Under the pieces are notes generated by a model, which saw only the letters and a list, made by a program, of their open reading frames with translations, ran no database searches and was not told the DNA's origin. Made by a program: the position numbers and the translations under genes. From positions 1 to 61,279 of the IMG/VR virus record IMGVR_UViG_3300046458_000047: a DNA stretch of 61,279 bases, one strand, 5' to 3'. Below, in pieces: positions 40,712-46,916 of this stretch. How positions within the stretch are numbered: the first letter of the stretch is position 1; every line of letters begins with the position of its first letter. Source of the stretch: a virus.

Positions 40712-42991
40712 TCATTGCGGGGCGCCGGGCACGGGGATGCCTTGCTGCATTTGCTCGGCTGCGCCTGGGACTTGGGGTTGTTGTTGGGCCTGCTGCTCTT
40801 GCATGGCCTGCTCTTGCATGGCCTGTTGCTCTTGCATGGCCTGCTGCTCTTGCGCCATGACCTGCTGGGCTTCTTCTTCGGATTTCGAGACGTAGCCGGC
40901 TTCGTGAAGCAAGGCATCGGCGACGGGCAAGATGGCGGGGTTGAGCGTGGCGACCTGAGCCGTCTCGACGGCCTTCTGCTGCGCGCCGACGTTGCCGGCC
41001 ACGGTGTCGACCATGGTCTTTTGTGCGGTGGTTTCGTTCTTGGCCGACTCGGAGTTGAGCTTGCGCAGTTGCGCCTGAGCCATTTCCTGCTGGAACTGCT
41101 GCGCTTGCGCGGCGGCTTCCTGCGCCTGCTGCTCTTCCGGGGTCAGTTCGGTGGCGTCCGGGTCGCGCATGCCGGTGATTTGGCGAATGCGCTTCACCAT
41201 TTCCTCGCCGTTCGGCAAGTCCAGCTCTTCGATGAGCAAGTCCAGCAACACCATCTGCACTTCGGGCGGCAGGGTCGGCATCATCTGCGTCAACTGCTCG
41301 GCCTGGGCCTGACGCAGGGACGCACGCCATTCGCTGTCACTGATGATGAAGTCGGCTTTGGTCTTGGTGATGTCGTCTTCGGGCAGGCCGGTGTTGATGT
41401 CCACGAACTCGGGTGTGCCGCGTTCGTTGGTGATGCGGAACTGCTTCTCTTCGCCCATGTACTGCTCGCACAGGGAGAGCGTGATTTCCCCGTCGACTTG
41501 GAAGGCGTAGCGAAGGTTGTCGAACAGCTTGCTGGTGGACTTGCTGCCCTGATCCTGACGCGCTTGGATGGCCACGCCGCTCTTGGCGTTGGTGGTCTTG
41601 CCCATCAGCTCGTCGGTGACGCCGGAAATCGACTGAATCATGCCAATCGACTGGCTCATGAACTCCATGTGGGCCGGGGCCAAGTCGCGGTCGACGTTCA
41701 GCTCAAGGAACTTGCCGGCGTTCTTGATGATCACGCCGTCCGGTCGGCTCACTTCCTCCATGAACTCGGCCAGGTTGTCGACGGCCCCGCGATCCATGAC
41801 GGTTTTGTTGGTCGACAGGATGAACAGGGCTTTCGAGGCGCGCTTGTTGATGTCGTCCTGGATGTCGCGCATGGCGCGGATCATCCCGTAAGGCAAGTTG
41901 TCGCGGCCCCGGCGATAGCCCCACACCGGAATGAACGGGAATTTGTTGTGCTTGTACGGGGAGCGGCCGATGTAGCAGATGCCGGTGGTGGTCATGACGC
42001 ACAGGTTCATGGTCATGGCCATGCGTTCGGCCACCACCGACTCCCCGCCTTGCACCAGGGCGGTATGGTTCGGGTCTTCGGGGTCAAACACTTCGCCACG
42101 GCGCTGGCCGGCGATGATCTTCTGCACACGCTCGGGCTTGCGGAACCAGACCTCGATCACGCGCACGCGCTGACGGTCGACAGAGTGGTCGGACACCCCA
42201 CGGGCCAGCGTTTCGCGCTCGTCCTCGGCCCAGTCCATGACTTCATCGCCGTTGGCCAAGTCCGTGCCGAAGCGTTCGCTCGTACTGGCTGAGCGCTCCA
42301 GCATGCGCGCACGACCAGGGAACATCGCGGTGATGACATCGAGGTCGATCCACTTCACGCGGATGACGTAACGGGCGTCGGACAGGTCGAACTCGGTCGA
42401 TGCGCTGTCCCAAAGGATGTTGCGCCACGACTCGTAGCGGTTGTAGATCGGCTCGCCGTCGTCGCGGTCGGTCACGCCGGACTCGATCCAGCCAACCCCC
42501 ACCTTCACGGCGTCTTCAAACGAGCGGCTGCGGTTGAATGGCGTGCGGTTGACGTCACTCAGGTACTTCAGGAGCTGGGTCTTCTTCTGCGCCGGCTTGG
42601 CGTCTTCCTTCCCGCGTGGCAACACCTTGAAGTCACTGCGGCCGCGCTTCTCCGAACCGATTACCCAGTTGATCGACTGAGTGATGACGTTGTAGCAAAT
42701 GGCCGCTTGGCCCCGTTCCTTGAGCTGCTCGGCGTCGGCCTCGCTCCACTGATCGTTGTCGTAGTAGTCCTCGTCAATCGCCTGCTGAAGGCGGTTGTCG
42801 TTCTGCCGGTCCAGCTCGCGTTGGTAGTACCCAAGCAGGCGCCCGTGAAGGTCGACGTTTTCCTCGGCGTCGAACGGGTCAATGGCCCGCTCTACTTCGG
42901 CGTCGTCGCCGTACACGGCCTCTTCATCCGCGATGCGCGAAGCCAAGCCATTCTGTTTGCGGGTGTGGTCTTCGCTGCCGAGGTCGAACAC
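40712..42991 (-). CDS. P22-like portal protein
   Basis: A 759-residue portal. Recognised blocks are DEDYYDNDQWSEADAEQLKER, QAAICYNVITQSINWVIGSEK, and the crown/clip region YRRGRDNLPYGMIRAMRDIQ. The C-terminus is an unusual Gln/Met-rich tract built from QAMQEQ units (about residues 705-735), likely the helical barrel or a flexible tail. It starts with GTG at 42991 after GGAGTAAGG. The portal ring is the DNA entrance and the nucleation point of head assembly. Confidence 0.9.
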   Translation of the reverse strand: MFDLGSEDHTRKQNGLASRIADEEAVYGDDAEVERAIDPFDAEENVDLHGRLLGYYQRELDRQNDNRLQQAIDEDYYDNDQWSEADAEQLKERGQAAICYNVITQSINWVIGSEKRGRSDFKVLPRGKEDAKPAQKKTQLLKYLSDVNRTPFNRSRSFEDAVKVGVGWIESGVTDRDDGEPIYNRYESWRNILWDSASTEFDLSDARYVIRVKWIDLDVITAMFPGRARMLERSASTSERFGTDLANGDEVMDWAEDERETLARGVSDHSVDRQRVRVIEVWFRKPERVQKIIAGQRRGEVFDPEDPNHTALVQGGESVVAERMAMTMNLCVMTTTGICYIGRSPYKHNKFPFIPVWGYRRGRDNLPYGMIRAMRDIQDDINKRASKALFILSTNKTVMDRGAVDNLAEFMEEVSRPDGVIIKNAGKFLELNVDRDLAPAHMEFMSQSIGMIQSISGVTDELMGKTTNAKSGVAIQARQDQGSKSTSKLFDNLRYAFQVDGEITLSLCEQYMGEEKQFRITNERGTPEFVDINTGLPEDDITKTKADFIISDSEWRASLRQAQAEQLTQMMPTLPPEVQMVLLDLLIEELDLPNGEEMVKRIRQITGMRDPDATELTPEEQQAQEAAAQAQQFQQEMAQAQLRKLNSESAKNETTAQKTMVDTVAGNVGAQQKAVETAQVATLNPAILPVADALLHEAGYVSKSEEEAQQVMAQEQQAMQEQQAMQEQAMQEQQAQQQPQVPGAAEQMQQGIPVPGAPQ

Positions 42992-43003: not shown

Positions 43004-43435
43004 TTAGTATTGGGTGCTCAGGGCGACGGTCTGTTGCCGCCCCATTTCGTCGGTCAACGTCGCGTCGGCCCCGACAAAGGAGCCCAGTACCGGGCGCGGC
43101 GGCATGGTGATGAGGTCAAGCAAGGAGCCGTGGATGGCCTCGGCGATCTTGTGGGTGCGTTGCATCGAGTCCTCGAAGCCCAGCAATTGGGCGAACTCCA
43201 TGGAACGGGTCAGCAGGTAGGTGGGGTCGTCGTACAGGTAGGCCGCTGACAGGGCCACGCAACACGGTTTGCTGCGCAGGGCCACGCCGTCGAACAGCAC
43301 GCGGTAGGTCGGCACCAGGCACAGCACCGGCTCCGACTCATCGAGGTCAGCGCCGTACCAGGTGCCAATCAACGTGATGTCGCCCAGCACGCGGGTGAAG
43401 GCGCGATTGGTCAGGTCCAACACCGGCTTAGTCAT
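43004..43435 (-). CDS. Hypothetical protein between portal and the paralogous cassettes
   Basis: A 143-residue protein starting MTKPVLDLTNRAFTRVLGDI. It includes ETWYGAD-like and PCCVALSAAYLYDDPTYLLT segments and a helical region FAQLLGFEDSMQRTHKIAEA. Not recognised. It overlaps the end of the gene at 43428 by eight bases and precedes the portal by 12, so all three are probably cotranscribed. Confidence 0.55.
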   Translation of the reverse strand: MTKPVLDLTNRAFTRVLGDITLIGTWYGADLDESEPVLCLVPTYRVLFDGVALRSKPCCVALSAAYLYDDPTYLLTRSMEFAQLLGFEDSMQRTHKIAEAIHGSLLDLITMPPRPVLGSFVGADATLTDEMGRQQTVALSTQY

Positions 43436-43796
43436 CGGTGTGGTCCAGGAACTTGCCGGCGCGCTGGTGCAAAAGCGCGACGTACAGCTCCATGGCGTGA
43501 AGCTGCATGTTCATGCGCCCGACTTCGGCAAAGCCGGCGACCTTCTCGGCCTTGCCGCTGCGCAGGAACAGCTCCAGGTCATTGATGCGTTGGTGCAATT
43601 GGCGCAGCTCGGCGATGAGGCGCTGCTGGTGCGGCTCAAGGTCGTCGATGTTGCCCAGTGCGATCGATGAAGCCTCGAAGGGCTCCTTCGGGCACCAACT
43701 GAGATAGCCATCGGCGTGCTTGATGCCGTAACCGGGCCTGTCCTGCCGGGCTTCGGGCCATGCGCTGACGATGTTGCTGGTGACGTACTGAATCAT
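43428..43796 (-). CDS. Acb2-like candidate, paralogue 1
   Basis: A 122-residue protein. Residues 1-52 (NIVSAWPEARQDRPGYGIK, GYLSWCPKEPFEASS) form a small domain; residues 53-122 start EPHQQRLIAELRQLHQRIND and are helical, with NMQLHAMELYVALLHQR. The same layout occurs in the gene at 43910, so the two are paralogues. The PHQQR...helix...M..Y...L..R pattern resembles the Acb2 (T4 Vs.4-type) family that sequesters cyclic nucleotides and blocks CBASS; this is from memory of the family and not certain. It has its own upstream motif and terminator-separated start. Confidence 0.55.
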   Translation of the reverse strand: MIQYVTSNIVSAWPEARQDRPGYGIKHADGYLSWCPKEPFEASSIALGNIDDLEPHQQRLIAELRQLHQRINDLELFLRSGKAEKVAGFAEVGRMNMQLHAMELYVALLHQRAGKFLDHTDD

Positions 43797-43853
43797 TCGT
43801 CTGACTCCGTATGGGTTGAACTGGCGTCAAATGGTGTTATATTCAAAGCTGGT

Positions 43854-43870
43854 AGTTCTATTATCTAACC
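43854..43870 (-). promoter_or_regulatory. 17-bp motif before paralogue 1
   Basis: Minus-strand GGTTAGATAATAGAACT, differing at one base from the copy before paralogue 2. A TATAAC box lies 13 bases downstream on the same strand, suggesting a dedicated promoter. Confidence 0.5.
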
Positions 43871-43879
43871 ACTGGTTAC

Positions 43880-43901
43880 AAAAAAAGGGCGCACGGGCGC
43901 C
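43880..43901 (-). terminator. Terminator after paralogue 2
   Basis: Minus strand GGCGC, CCGT loop, GCGCC, then C and TTTTTTT. It ends the paralogue 2 transcript just before the control region of paralogue 1. Confidence 0.75.
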
Positions 43902-43909
43902 TTGGTGGG

Positions 43910-44314
43910 TCAGAACTCTTCGTAATCCTTGTCGACGTCCTGGTCTTCAGCCTCATCGATGGTCGTCTGCTCGATGCGATCCACCAGGATTTTGTTGTAG
44001 ACGTTCATGATGTCGTACTGCGCACGGATCAGGTCTTGGTCGTCCTCGACTAGATCGGCGAAACCCTCGGTGTCCATGTACTGCTCCAGACGATCAGTGC
44101 GCTCCACCATCTGCTCCATGTGCGCGACCAGCCGTTGCTCATGCGGGGCCAGATGATCGATGTAACCGAGGGGCAACCATGTCGCGTCAACCAGTGCCTT
44201 GGGGCTCCAACTCTTGGTGCCGTTGACGTCCAGCACGGCATAACCGGGCTCGCCGTCCTTCTCCTGTGGCCATGCGGTGACGATTTGGGTCGGAATCGCG
44301 TAACTGAGCGGCAT
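43910..44314 (-). CDS. Acb2-like candidate, paralogue 2
   Basis: A 134-residue paralogue of the 43428 gene. Shared N-terminal domain: QIVTAWPQEKDGEPGYAVLD and KSWSPKALVDATW. Shared C-terminal helical part: APHEQRLVAHMEQMVERTDR (P57-HEQR), then DQDLIRAQYDIMNVYNKILV and an RIEQ end, followed by an acidic tail. This half is closer than paralogue 1 to the Acb2/crAss001_48-type pattern P-H-x-Q-R ... L..Q...M..Y..IL..RI. If so it may bind immune cyclic nucleotides. Flanked by terminators, it looks like a separately expressed cargo (moron) gene within the late region. Confidence 0.58.
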   Translation of the reverse strand: MPLSYAIPTQIVTAWPQEKDGEPGYAVLDVNGTKSWSPKALVDATWLPLGYIDHLAPHEQRLVAHMEQMVERTDRLEQYMDTEGFADLVEDDQDLIRAQYDIMNVYNKILVDRIEQTTIDEAEDQDVDKDYEEF

Positions 44315-44359
44315 GGAAGACCTCTAGCGTGTCGTGTGTGGTGCTCTTAATCCTATCTC

Positions 44360-44376
44360 AGTTCTAATATCTAACC
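44360..44376 (-). promoter_or_regulatory. 17-bp motif before paralogue 2
   Basis: Minus-strand GGTTAGATATTAGAACT, one base different from the motif before paralogue 1, followed after 4-5 bases by a TAGGAT box. Confidence 0.5.
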
Positions 44377-44390
44377 ACAAGTGACGGCAA

Positions 44391-44407
44391 AAAGGCCTGT
44401 CAGCAGG
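44391..44407 (-). terminator. Weak terminator after the terminase-linked small gene
   Basis: Minus strand CCTG, CTGA loop, CAGG, then CCTTTTTG. The stem has only 4 bp, so termination is probably partial, letting late transcription pass. Confidence 0.45.
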
Positions 44408-44612
44408 TAATAACAGGGCTGAAGGGGAACACGTCACTCGGGCGCAGCTCCAGCGTGCGCATTCCGGGGGGAAACGTCGTATAGGCCGGCGTCGTCTTCA
44501 CGAACACGGTTTGCAGGTGCTCGTTGATGGCTTTCCATTGCTCGGGGGTCGGTCGCTCGCCGTTCAACTCGGCGAAACCCTGTAACCAGTACACAAACTG
44601 TTCTGCGGTCAT
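44400..44612 (-). CDS. Small terminase-associated phage protein
   Basis: A 70-residue protein, MTAEQFVYWLQGFAELNGER, then PTPEQWKAINEHLQTVF. This short helical protein is widespread near terminase and capsid genes of tailed phages. Function unknown. It overlaps the large terminase gene by four bases (ATGA), showing translational coupling. Confidence 0.72.
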   Translation of the reverse strand: MTAEQFVYWLQGFAELNGERPTPEQWKAINEHLQTVFVKTTPAYTTFPPGMRTLELRPSDVFPFSPVITC

Positions 44613-46189
44613 GACACTCTCCAGCTCTTGCGGGTGCCGCGCACACTGGCGGCGCTCTTCTGCGGGCCATGATCGACGTAGCCTTGGGCGTGTTGCCGTA
44701 GGGCATCGGCGGCTTCGGTGTGGCCATCCTTCAACGGGCGATCAGCCCATGTCTGCGTCTGCACGCTCCACGCCTTGCGGTACAGCTCCAGGTGTTGCAG
44801 GCCTTCTTTGCAGTTCACCTCGTCGAACCAGTAACCGGCGAAGGCGTTGCGGGTGGCCTGAATGCCGTGCTGTAGCTCGCTGACACGGGCCACCACTTCG
44901 ACGTGGCGCAGGCCAAGGTCTTCGAGCATCTGCTTGGGGCTCTTGTTGACGTCCTCGCCCTGCCTGATGTGATTGCCGTCGTGCGGTAGGTAGTGCGTGC
45001 CCCACACGTAGCCGGTCTTCTGAAGCTCCGCGACAAAGTAGCTGTACGGCTCAACCCAGCCCTCGATGAAGCCAATGAAGTTGTCACGCTGGCCGACACG
45101 CTGGTGTAGCCAGATGGCGCAGCCGTCGCTGTGGCCGATGTCCCAAAAGGTGTTGACCGGTAGGCCGGGATGGTAGGGAACGGTGGTGATGCGCTTCTGC
45201 TTGCGTGCCGCGATCAACTGCATTTTGTAGTAGGTGCCTTCGGCTGACTGCTGGAAGGCTTCCTTGGACGTCGACGGGTACTCTTGCCACATCCGTTCAT
45301 CTTGGCCACTGAAGAGCTCGTCGCGGGTGACGATCCACCATGCGCGCTGCTCCAGGCTGATGACCTTGCCCAGCTTGCTCTCCAGGTCGTCGAAGTATTC
45401 GTGCTCTTTGCGGCTGATGATCACGCCGGCCGGGTCGCACCGGTAGCCCTGCTCGTCATGCCACGGGAAGAAGTGGAAGCGGAACTGCTTAGGCCGAAGG
45501 GGTACGCCCAGCTCCTGCAACGCCTCGGCGCGGTTGGCCTTGTCGTGGAAGTCACCACCACGGCCCTCGGCGGTCGACTCGATGAAGATGATCCCGGTGT
45601 CAGGCACGGCCGGGAACGTACCGGTGACGATTTCCTCGGCGCGTAGCGGGTACATCGCGCAAATCTTGCCGTACTCGCTGACGTGCAGATAGTGGATCGT
45701 GTCGCCGCGCATCGACGTGCCCACTTGAATGGTGCTGCCGTTGGCCAGCGTCATTTCCATCACGCTGCAAGTGGTCAATGGCATCGCTTGGCGCAGTGCC
45801 GGGGGCAGTCGGTCATAGGCGAACTTGATCTTCTTGAAGATCTTCTTCGCCGCGTCCTCGGTGTGGGCCAGCACGCCAAGGTTGAGGTTCGGTGTGAACA
45901 GGGCGACATCGAGGAAGTAGATTTGAATCCAGGTGGTGAAGCCCAACTGGCGCGCCTTGAGGATCAGGTTGCGATACCACAAGCGACTCATCAGCGCCTT
46001 CTGTGCGCGGTTGGGCTTGAACTTGACCACCACGCCTTGGGCGTCGTCGTCCTCGTCGTCGTCAGCCGCGGCGTCCTTGGTGCGGATGTAATAGAGGTTG
46101 GCCATGCGCCAATGCGGATCAGCCATGGCCTCCATGAACTCGGTCGGGTTCATGTCCTCGATGGCCTTAAACGCTTCGAGAGCCCCCAT
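44609..46189 (-). CDS. terL: Terminase large subunit
   Basis: A 526-residue packaging motor. The ATPase part has a deviant Walker A, K78-ARQLGFTT, and an acidic Walker B region near HYLHVSEYGKICAM; C-terminal nuclease acidic residues include FWDIGHSDG and FDEVN. The N-terminal 60 residues are acidic and partly disordered (DDDEDDDA). It cuts concatemers and pumps DNA through the portal. The TerL type suggests headful-style packaging seen in P22/N4gp56 podophages, but this cannot be proved from sequence alone. Confidence 0.92.
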   Translation of the reverse strand: MGALEAFKAIEDMNPTEFMEAMADPHWRMANLYYIRTKDAAADDDEDDDAQGVVVKFKPNRAQKALMSRLWYRNLILKARQLGFTTWIQIYFLDVALFTPNLNLGVLAHTEDAAKKIFKKIKFAYDRLPPALRQAMPLTTCSVMEMTLANGSTIQVGTSMRGDTIHYLHVSEYGKICAMYPLRAEEIVTGTFPAVPDTGIIFIESTAEGRGGDFHDKANRAEALQELGVPLRPKQFRFHFFPWHDEQGYRCDPAGVIISRKEHEYFDDLESKLGKVISLEQRAWWIVTRDELFSGQDERMWQEYPSTSKEAFQQSAEGTYYKMQLIAARKQKRITTVPYHPGLPVNTFWDIGHSDGCAIWLHQRVGQRDNFIGFIEGWVEPYSYFVAELQKTGYVWGTHYLPHDGNHIRQGEDVNKSPKQMLEDLGLRHVEVVARVSELQHGIQATRNAFAGYWFDEVNCKEGLQHLELYRKAWSVQTQTWADRPLKDGHTEAADALRQHAQGYVDHGPQKSAASVRGTRKSWRVS

Positions 46190-46257: not shown

Positions 46258-46800
46258 TCATTCCGCCACCGGTTTCAGCGTCTTGCCGCCCATTTGGCTC
46301 ATCAAGTCGAACAGCGGGTTGTCTGGCTGAACACCATGGTTCAAGTCCAGCTTGTCGCCGTACTTCTTCGGCTTCAACTTGGCGGCAATCCATTTGCGGG
46401 TTTCAACGCGCAGCTTGGAGCGCTGAACGTGCTCGCCGTTGACCTTGTAGCCAATGCAATCGCCGTCCTTGTCGTGAACCTCCATCCAATCGTTCCGGCC
46501 GTCGTCGCTGATGTCCAGAATCTCTTCCACCAGGGCATCAGCAGATTCGGCCTTCGCACGCGCGTATTGCTCCGCAAACTCGGAATGGGCGCTCAACCAC
46601 TTGAACACGGTCGACATCGCGGGCATTTCGTCAGCCAGGCAAACGGTGCGCATCGACTTACCGGTGGCCAGTTGGGCGCAGATGTCCGAGGCCAGCTCAG
46701 GGTTGAAGCTGGATGGCCTGCCCGTGGGCTTTGGCGGGGCTTTGGGTTTACCTGGTGCTTTGGCCTTGGGGTCGGCCTTAGTCGCGGTCTTGGTGCTCAT
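46258..46800 (-). CDS. terS: Terminase small subunit
   Basis: A 180-residue protein (MSTKTATKADPKAKAPGKPK). A Lys/Pro/Ala-rich tail is followed by a DNA-binding region, FNPELASDICAQLATGKSMR to MPAMSTVFKWLSAHSEF, typical of TerS recognition domains, and by EEILDISDDGRNDW and RKWIAAKLKPKKYGDK, common in this family. It recognises the packaging site. It is the first gene of the minus-strand late region and has a near-perfect 17-bp palindromic motif 29 bases upstream. Confidence 0.86.
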   Translation of the reverse strand: MSTKTATKADPKAKAPGKPKAPPKPTGRPSSFNPELASDICAQLATGKSMRTVCLADEMPAMSTVFKWLSAHSEFAEQYARAKAESADALVEEILDISDDGRNDWMEVHDKDGDCIGYKVNGEHVQRSKLRVETRKWIAAKLKPKKYGDKLDLNHGVQPDNPLFDLMSQMGGKTLKPVAE

Positions 46801-46828
46801 GGCGGCCTCGGTGCGATGTGCAAACTTA

Positions 46829-46845
46829 GGTTTGATTATCGAACC
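46829..46845. promoter_or_regulatory. 17-bp palindromic operator-like motif before the late region
   Basis: GGTTTGATTATCGAACC, symmetric at seven of eight base pairs, just upstream of the terminase small subunit gene. It is the best-formed member of the dispersed motif family and probably controls the late promoter. Confidence 0.6.
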
Positions 46846-46897
46846 ATACAACACACCATCGCAACACGGGAGACGAACGGACCACTTTTTAGATTGT

Positions 46898-46916
46898 CTA
46901 GGCAACCGTTGCCTAG
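46898..46916. promoter_or_regulatory. Perfect 19-bp palindrome in the divergent control region
   Basis: CTAGGCAAC, one central C, GTTGCCTAG. It lies between the late region (minus) and the operon starting at 46971 (plus), 54 bases before that start. Sequence unlike the 17-bp motif, so a second regulator is implied, perhaps the HTH protein at 48250. Confidence 0.6.

Follow-up and report, generated by a model that had tools for sequence, protein, structure and literature searches.

The neighbouring genes for the proteins P0001 and P0002 in a viral genome record are interpreted here as tandemly duplicated, modular anti-defence cassettes whose C-terminal helical hairpin is a candidate nucleotide sponge that would bind an immune signal, a reading to which a probability of about one half is assigned. 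The interpretation draws on the domain composition of the two proteins, on an N-terminal module that they share with established sponges, on natural fusions and gene neighbourhoods that bring the hairpin together with such sponges, on the duplication of the genes along with an upstream element, and on purifying selection acting on both. As sponge candidates the two proteins are well supported by association.

Locus, duplication and insertion

The window, by which the whole analysed stretch of 61,279 nt (virus record IMGVR_UViG_3300046458_000047) is meant, carries the large terminase gene (terL) at 44609-46189 and the portal gene at 40712-42991, and both genes under study lie between the two. 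The features of this interval are listed below; L007 denotes the related contig IMGVR_UViG_3300047469_000106, in which the layout is the same and both paralogues are present.

44400-44612, minus strand: small gene of 70 aa, part of the same insertion after terL as the cassettes (phrog_35763/28500)
44396-44417, minus strand: terminator-like hairpin ahead of cassette 1 that overlaps the 70-aa gene at its end (kept in L007)
44360-44378, minus strand: 19-bp element GTGGTTAGATATTAGAACT upstream of cassette 1 (two-copy search; kept in L007)
43910-44314, minus strand: cassette gene 1 (P0002, 134 aa), encoding N-module, crAss001_48 hairpin and acidic tail (ORF; PF21825; AF2)
44159-44314, minus strand: SWSPK N-module of P0002, predicted SH3/Tudor-like barrel (module HMM; AF2 of a natural solo module)
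43970-44146, minus strand: crAss001_48 helical hairpin of P0002 (PF21825)
43888-43901, minus strand: terminator-like hairpin and T run between the cassettes (kept in L007)
43854-43872, minus strand: 19-bp element GTGGTTAGATAATAGAACT upstream of cassette 2 (repeat search; diverged copy in L007)
43428-43796, minus strand: cassette gene 2 (P0001, 122 aa), encoding N-module and crAss001_48 hairpin (ORF; PF21825; identity to P0002)
43647-43796, minus strand: SWCPK N-module of P0001 (module HMM)
43458-43637, minus strand: crAss001_48 helical hairpin of P0001 (PF21825)

The preliminary description had claimed two paralogues of 122 and 134 residues between terminase and portal, and both open reading frames were found there, with 35% identity across 109 aa (BLASTP, E=4e-22). 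The SWSPK/SWCPK motifs near the N-termini and the PH-x-QR motif that it had pointed out are present in both proteins. The repeated motif differing at one base, which it had also reported, was recovered as a 19-bp element, GTGGTTAGATA[A/T]TAGAACT, that occurs in exactly two copies in the 61-kb window, carrying the A/T difference, where shuffles with 3 mismatches allowed predict 0. Both copies sit inside a 37-nt repeat with a spacing of 506 nt, and at each cassette the order is terminator-like hairpin, 19-bp element and gene, a layout that fits the duplication of a gene together with its leader.

The further claim that each cassette has its own terminator held for the terminator-like hairpin ahead of each element, and failed behind P0001, where no terminator was found. 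The count of terminator-like hairpins in the region is not higher than in shuffles, yet the related contig retains both of these hairpins along with the element. The 19-bp element may serve as a promoter or an operator. A sigma-70 promoter was considered for it and rejected, as no minus-strand promoter-like site was found at either copy. Since P0001 and the next gene overlap at the start of the latter (43435), transcription from the second element would continue into the gene before portal. This 143-aa gene (window 43004-43435), which separates the cassettes from portal, matches phrog_10057, which is labelled 'DNA methyltransferase'; the label looks doubtful, because a Pfam search of the gene gave no match and because of its site between terL and portal, here and apparently in Lessieviruses.

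In the Burkholderia phages JC1 and CSP3, a single hypothetical gene separates terL from portal, and the 70-aa gene is missing between terL and the next gene. The CSP3 gene at this place looks, by its sequence, like a homologue of the 143-aa gene of the window. The single gene between terL and portal in JC1 and CSP3 indicates that the two cassettes, like the 70-aa gene, are additional in the lineage of the window. One cassette homologue is present in CSP3 at another site, immediately before csrA and the capsid gene. Both CSP3 (L006:5352-5546) and JC1 (L250:7868-8062), which are Lessieviruses, have a csrA-like carbon storage regulator gene directly before the major capsid gene. The position of the cassettes between terL and portal and the relative that precedes the capsid gene of CSP3 might suggest that the proteins are minor virion or packaging accessories, but the site is empty in JC1, relatives are found near replication genes and in unrelated phages, and Acb2 genes, too, often lie near head genes, so that a structural role is considered highly improbable.

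Between the window and the related contig, P0002 is 78% identical (dN/dS 0.31) and P0001 72% identical (dN/dS 0.38), compared with 95-96% identity and dN/dS of 0.10-0.12 for terL and portal. P0001 and P0002 are genuine coding genes under purifying selection that evolve faster than the core genes. The small terminase gene (terS, window 46258-46905) shows 66% identity and a dN/dS of 0.39 in the same comparison, and its strong divergence, while terL and portal remain ~95% identical, suggests an exchange at terS. A nucleotide-level search of the phage collection for relatives returned just one weak match, to a capsid gene, and no relevant family was matched in PADLOC and NCBIfam searches.

Family and structure of the C-terminal hairpin

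The C-terminal regions of both proteins matched Pfam family PF21825 (crAss001_48) well above its curated cut-off of 24.8 bits, with 52.4-53.6 bits (5e-14) for P0001 and 46.3-47.9 bits (3.9e-12) for P0002, and the same family matched all 41 of the collected relatives; membership of the window proteins in PF21825 is certain. The C-terminal halves had previously been compared with the Acb2/T4 Vs.4 type. T4 Vs.4 itself matches PF24729, the Acb2/Tad1 hairpin family, and this family matched 0/41 relatives even at E<=10. The profile comparison with Acb2 that had been proposed as a check gave an hhalign probability of 1.3-2.7%, against 98.7% for a positive control between two Acb2 subfamilies (T4-type and PaMx33-type). 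Membership in Acb2 is not supported by these profiles. Domains of the other sponge families were likewise sought in P0001 and P0002 by Pfam, with no match to PF11195 (Tad2) or PF13876 (Acb4).

The AF2 model of P0002 (mean pLDDT 88) predicts a beta-rich region in residues 1-52 followed by helices at 57-80 and 90-116. The predicted hairpin superimposes on crAss001 gp48 (named 'Shock protein C') of a viral structure library with a TM score of 0.94 and 0.7 A. Foldseek comparison of the whole P0002 model with the PDB returned nothing under E 0.26, and the VIA structure search returned generic helical hairpins at Z ~8, below the threshold of the tool for helical folds. No known sponge fold was among the Foldseek and VIA matches listed, and the solved Acb2 chains 7uq2, 8h2j and 8ixz were absent from these listed matches, a list that does not exclude families outside it. 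In a PDB sequence search for the PF21825 family no solved chain was matched; matches of the family profile to ubiquitin were rejected as repeat-inflated, the E-value for a single repeat being ~200. A limited literature search on crAss001_48 or denB.1 found no function for PF21825.

It is possible that the hairpins are true but very divergent members of the Acb2/Tad1 family, with which they share a size class and a helical-hairpin architecture and whose genes adjoin some of the relatives. This is improbable in view of the profile results given above and of the conserved motifs, which differ between the crAss001_48 hairpin and Acb2. In the crAss001_48 hairpin, polar residues at both ends are strongly conserved (H58, R61, E65, Q99 and R113).

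The N-terminal module and its association with sponges

Both window proteins begin with a beta-rich module of ~50 aa that ends in SW[SC]PK..[FV][ED] and was detected by a module HMM at 44162-44308 in P0002 (3.7e-24) and at 43650-43796 in P0001 (6.5e-25). No Pfam entry was found for this N-module, and a Pfam search of its solo 57-aa form gave no match. The preliminary description had regarded its joining to the hairpin as an uncommon fusion, whereas the N-module followed by the hairpin is the usual architecture among the relatives.

The hairpin-only alignment was too variable to serve as a scan pattern. An alignment of the N-module only, blind to the C-terminus, was used to scan 2.9 million viral contigs, and the best 80 loci were grouped into 49 clusters, with partner calls verified by Pfam for representatives. 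The partner was Tad2 in 15 clusters, Acb4 (PF13876) in 14 and crAss001_48 in 15, while five clusters had the solo 57-aa form; other partners were found in 0/49 clusters from these best 80 loci. The Acb4 family (PF13876; SPO1 gp1.3) is a sponge for 3'3'-cGAMP and cyclic dinucleotides, tested in vitro and in phage (PMC11722364), and Tad2 (PF11195) is a sponge for gcADPR and cyclic dinucleotides (PMC12043709). With Tad2 and Acb4 established, two of the three partners of the N-module are proven sponges, the third being crAss001_48.

The AF2 model of a natural solo N-module (pLDDT 94) is predicted to be an SH3/Tudor-like barrel. Structure searches with it returned Tudor/SH3 domains, led by those of the RNA polymerase-binding proteins Mfd, UvrD and CarD, at Z 5-6, which is below the trustworthy level, so that this modelled likeness to RNA polymerase-binding Tudor domains is suggestive only. 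The N-modules of L024, L025, L026, L029 and L033 contain a ~30-aa cysteine-rich insert (CG.DC..G...CN.YC.G.AD), possibly a small metal-binding insertion. A protein with N-module and crAss001_48 hairpin in a 234-kb phage contig (L047:2986-4179) has an extra ~280 aa, in which no Pfam match was found.

The partners of the N-module were also found combined in pairs within single chains. The N-module, crAss001_48 and Tad2 are joined in L084 and in the Muribaculaceae loci L224 and L232; the N-module, Acb4 and crAss001_48 form one 227-aa chain in gp45 of crAssphage cr107_1 (L243:1527-2210); and the N-module, Acb4 and Tad2 are fused in a Clostridia MAG contig (L234:4923-5654). In phage N4 (L240:2133-2986), the Acb4-family gene for gp48 is directly followed by that for gp49, which consists of N-module and Tad2, constituting a double sponge locus.

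Gene neighbourhoods were sampled in 42 viral records encoding proteins with N-module and crAss001_48 hairpin, gathered by pattern scans and including several near-duplicates that were partly removed by clustering. A Tad2 gene was found in seven of the 42 records and was adjacent or fused in 7/7; an Acb2 gene was found in five, immediately adjacent in four and ~2.7 kb off in one, and L052 provided a further case of an adjacent Acb2 gene. Genes of the Acb4 family adjoin relatives in G002, G005, G009, L023 and L026. After clustering at 80% identity, a sponge gene was fused or located within 1 kb on the same strand in 11/45 clusters, compared with one match in 214 kb of farther flank (binomial p of 2.6e-5, or 6.4e-4 without the fusions), although this evidence is weakened by the general clustering of accessory genes. 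Among 249 Pseudomonas genomes the base rates were low, at 3 genomes for PF21825, 21 for PF24729 and 2 for PF11195.

Most crAss001_48 members that consist of the hairpin alone have no sponge neighbours. No Tad2, Acb4 or Acb2 gene was found within ~2 kb of five solo crAss001_48 genes and T4 denB.1, and the Klebsiella phage FBKp27 was alone among the solo cases examined in having Tad2- and Acb4-family genes, at ~3-4 kb. The earlier idea that the genes are moron-like and encode anti-defence proteins with an added N-terminal domain gains from the N-module common to Tad2 and Acb4, from the fusions and from the sponge neighbours, and loses its proposed Acb2 membership.

A minor possibility is that sponges use both the hairpin and the N-module as accessory parts for oligomerisation or targeting, in which case the hairpin would bind no ligand and the window proteins would adapt or multimerise other proteins. 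Such a role would suit a plain two-helix hairpin with only generic best matches in VIA, which shares single chains with Tad2 and with Acb4 and could be a helper there, and it would suit an N-module whose nearest structural matches are protein-binding Tudor/SH3 domains. It would not explain the strong conservation of H58, R61, E65, Q99 and R113 at the hairpin ends; moreover, N-module-hairpin proteins with no sponge gene nearby are common, as are solo hairpins such as T4 denB.1, and the hairpin must hence have some function by itself.

Alternatively, the proteins might act against the host or its defences in some other way, for instance with RNA polymerase or a defence protein as their binding partner, and their link to sponges might reflect the clustering of accessory genes. 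The Mfd, UvrD and CarD matches of the N-module, with Z of just 5-6, and the solo members that have no sponge neighbours are in line with this. It is nevertheless unlikely, since clustering cannot account for the mere three kinds of partner of the N-module, two of them sponges, and leaves the in-frame fusions unexplained.

Proposed function and comparison with known systems

Under the sponge interpretation, the two genes would represent a tandemly duplicated cassette that entered the genome between terL and the gene preceding portal, each protein joining a mobile SH3/Tudor-like N-module to a crAss001_48 helical hairpin. The hairpin would most probably oligomerise and sequester, in the manner of Tad2, Acb4, Acb2 and Tad1, an immune second messenger of nucleotide type, with the conserved polar cluster (H58, R61, E65, Q99, R113) lining a candidate binding site, and effectors of CBASS, Thoeris or similar systems would hence not be switched on. 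The N-module might be a shared sponge chassis that aids assembly or targeting, and the two copies may have come to differ in their ligands since the duplication.

The PF21825 protein of phage T4, denB.1, consists solely of a crAss001_48 domain of 64 aa (4.3e-19) and is encoded beside rIIB at L242:1244-1438 (T4 NC_000866 167743-167937). T-even records often label the gene at this place 'endonuclease', which is probably a spill-over from denB. T4 without acb1 and acb2 suffers a ~10,000-fold drop on two CBASS systems, and its sensitivity, though denB.1 is present, argues against the PF21825 family covering those CBASS signals. If PF21825 is a sponge family, denB.1 at its natural level does not cover them, and the ligand may be another signal, for example a TIR-derived or type III CRISPR signal.

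A broader proposal is put forward tentatively, namely that PF21825, including T4 denB.1, is an unrecognised and very widespread family of immune-signal sponges and that phages use the SWSPK module as a common chassis to which Tad2, Acb4 and crAss001_48 domains are added, which would yield sponges of multiple specificity able to overcome several signalling defences at once. Proteins in which several of these domains are fused suggest that sponge specificities are combined by phages on a single scaffold.

Sponges for immune signals are among the major counter-defences of phages, and the recognition of each new family has accounted for resistance to one class of bacterial immunity. The large, uncharacterised family PF21825, whose members occur in crAssphages, T4-like phages and many prophages, and the unnamed N-module are here tied to two proven sponge families, and candidate cases are provided in classical phages by T4 denB.1, N4 gp48 (Acb4 family) and N4 gp49 (N-module with Tad2). 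P0001, P0002 and their widespread relatives are strong candidates for another viral way of silencing bacterial immunity. A recent structure-guided study is said to have described further sponge families (Sequestin and Lockin) and an enzyme family, Acb5, with some instances in T-even phages, and it might already cover PF21825.

Among known systems, the Acb2/Tad1 family (PF24729; T4 Vs.4, PaMx33-type p26) resembles the window proteins in being a small helical hairpin, but has no sequence or profile relation to their hairpins. The long form of Tad2 (e.g., N4 gp49), a sponge acting on Thoeris and CBASS, has the SWSPK N-module in common with the window proteins and is fused to or adjoins crAss001_48 in several phages, whereas the window proteins are without the Tad2 domain. 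Many Acb4 homologues carry the window-type N-module, which the Acb4 paper (PMC11722364) does not name, mentioning 'additional extensions', and the window proteins are without the Acb4 domain. The PF21825 proteins T4 denB.1 and crAss001 gp48 belong to the same Pfam family as the C-terminal hairpin of the window proteins, which add the N-module, whereas T4 denB.1 and other solo members of the family consist of the hairpin alone.
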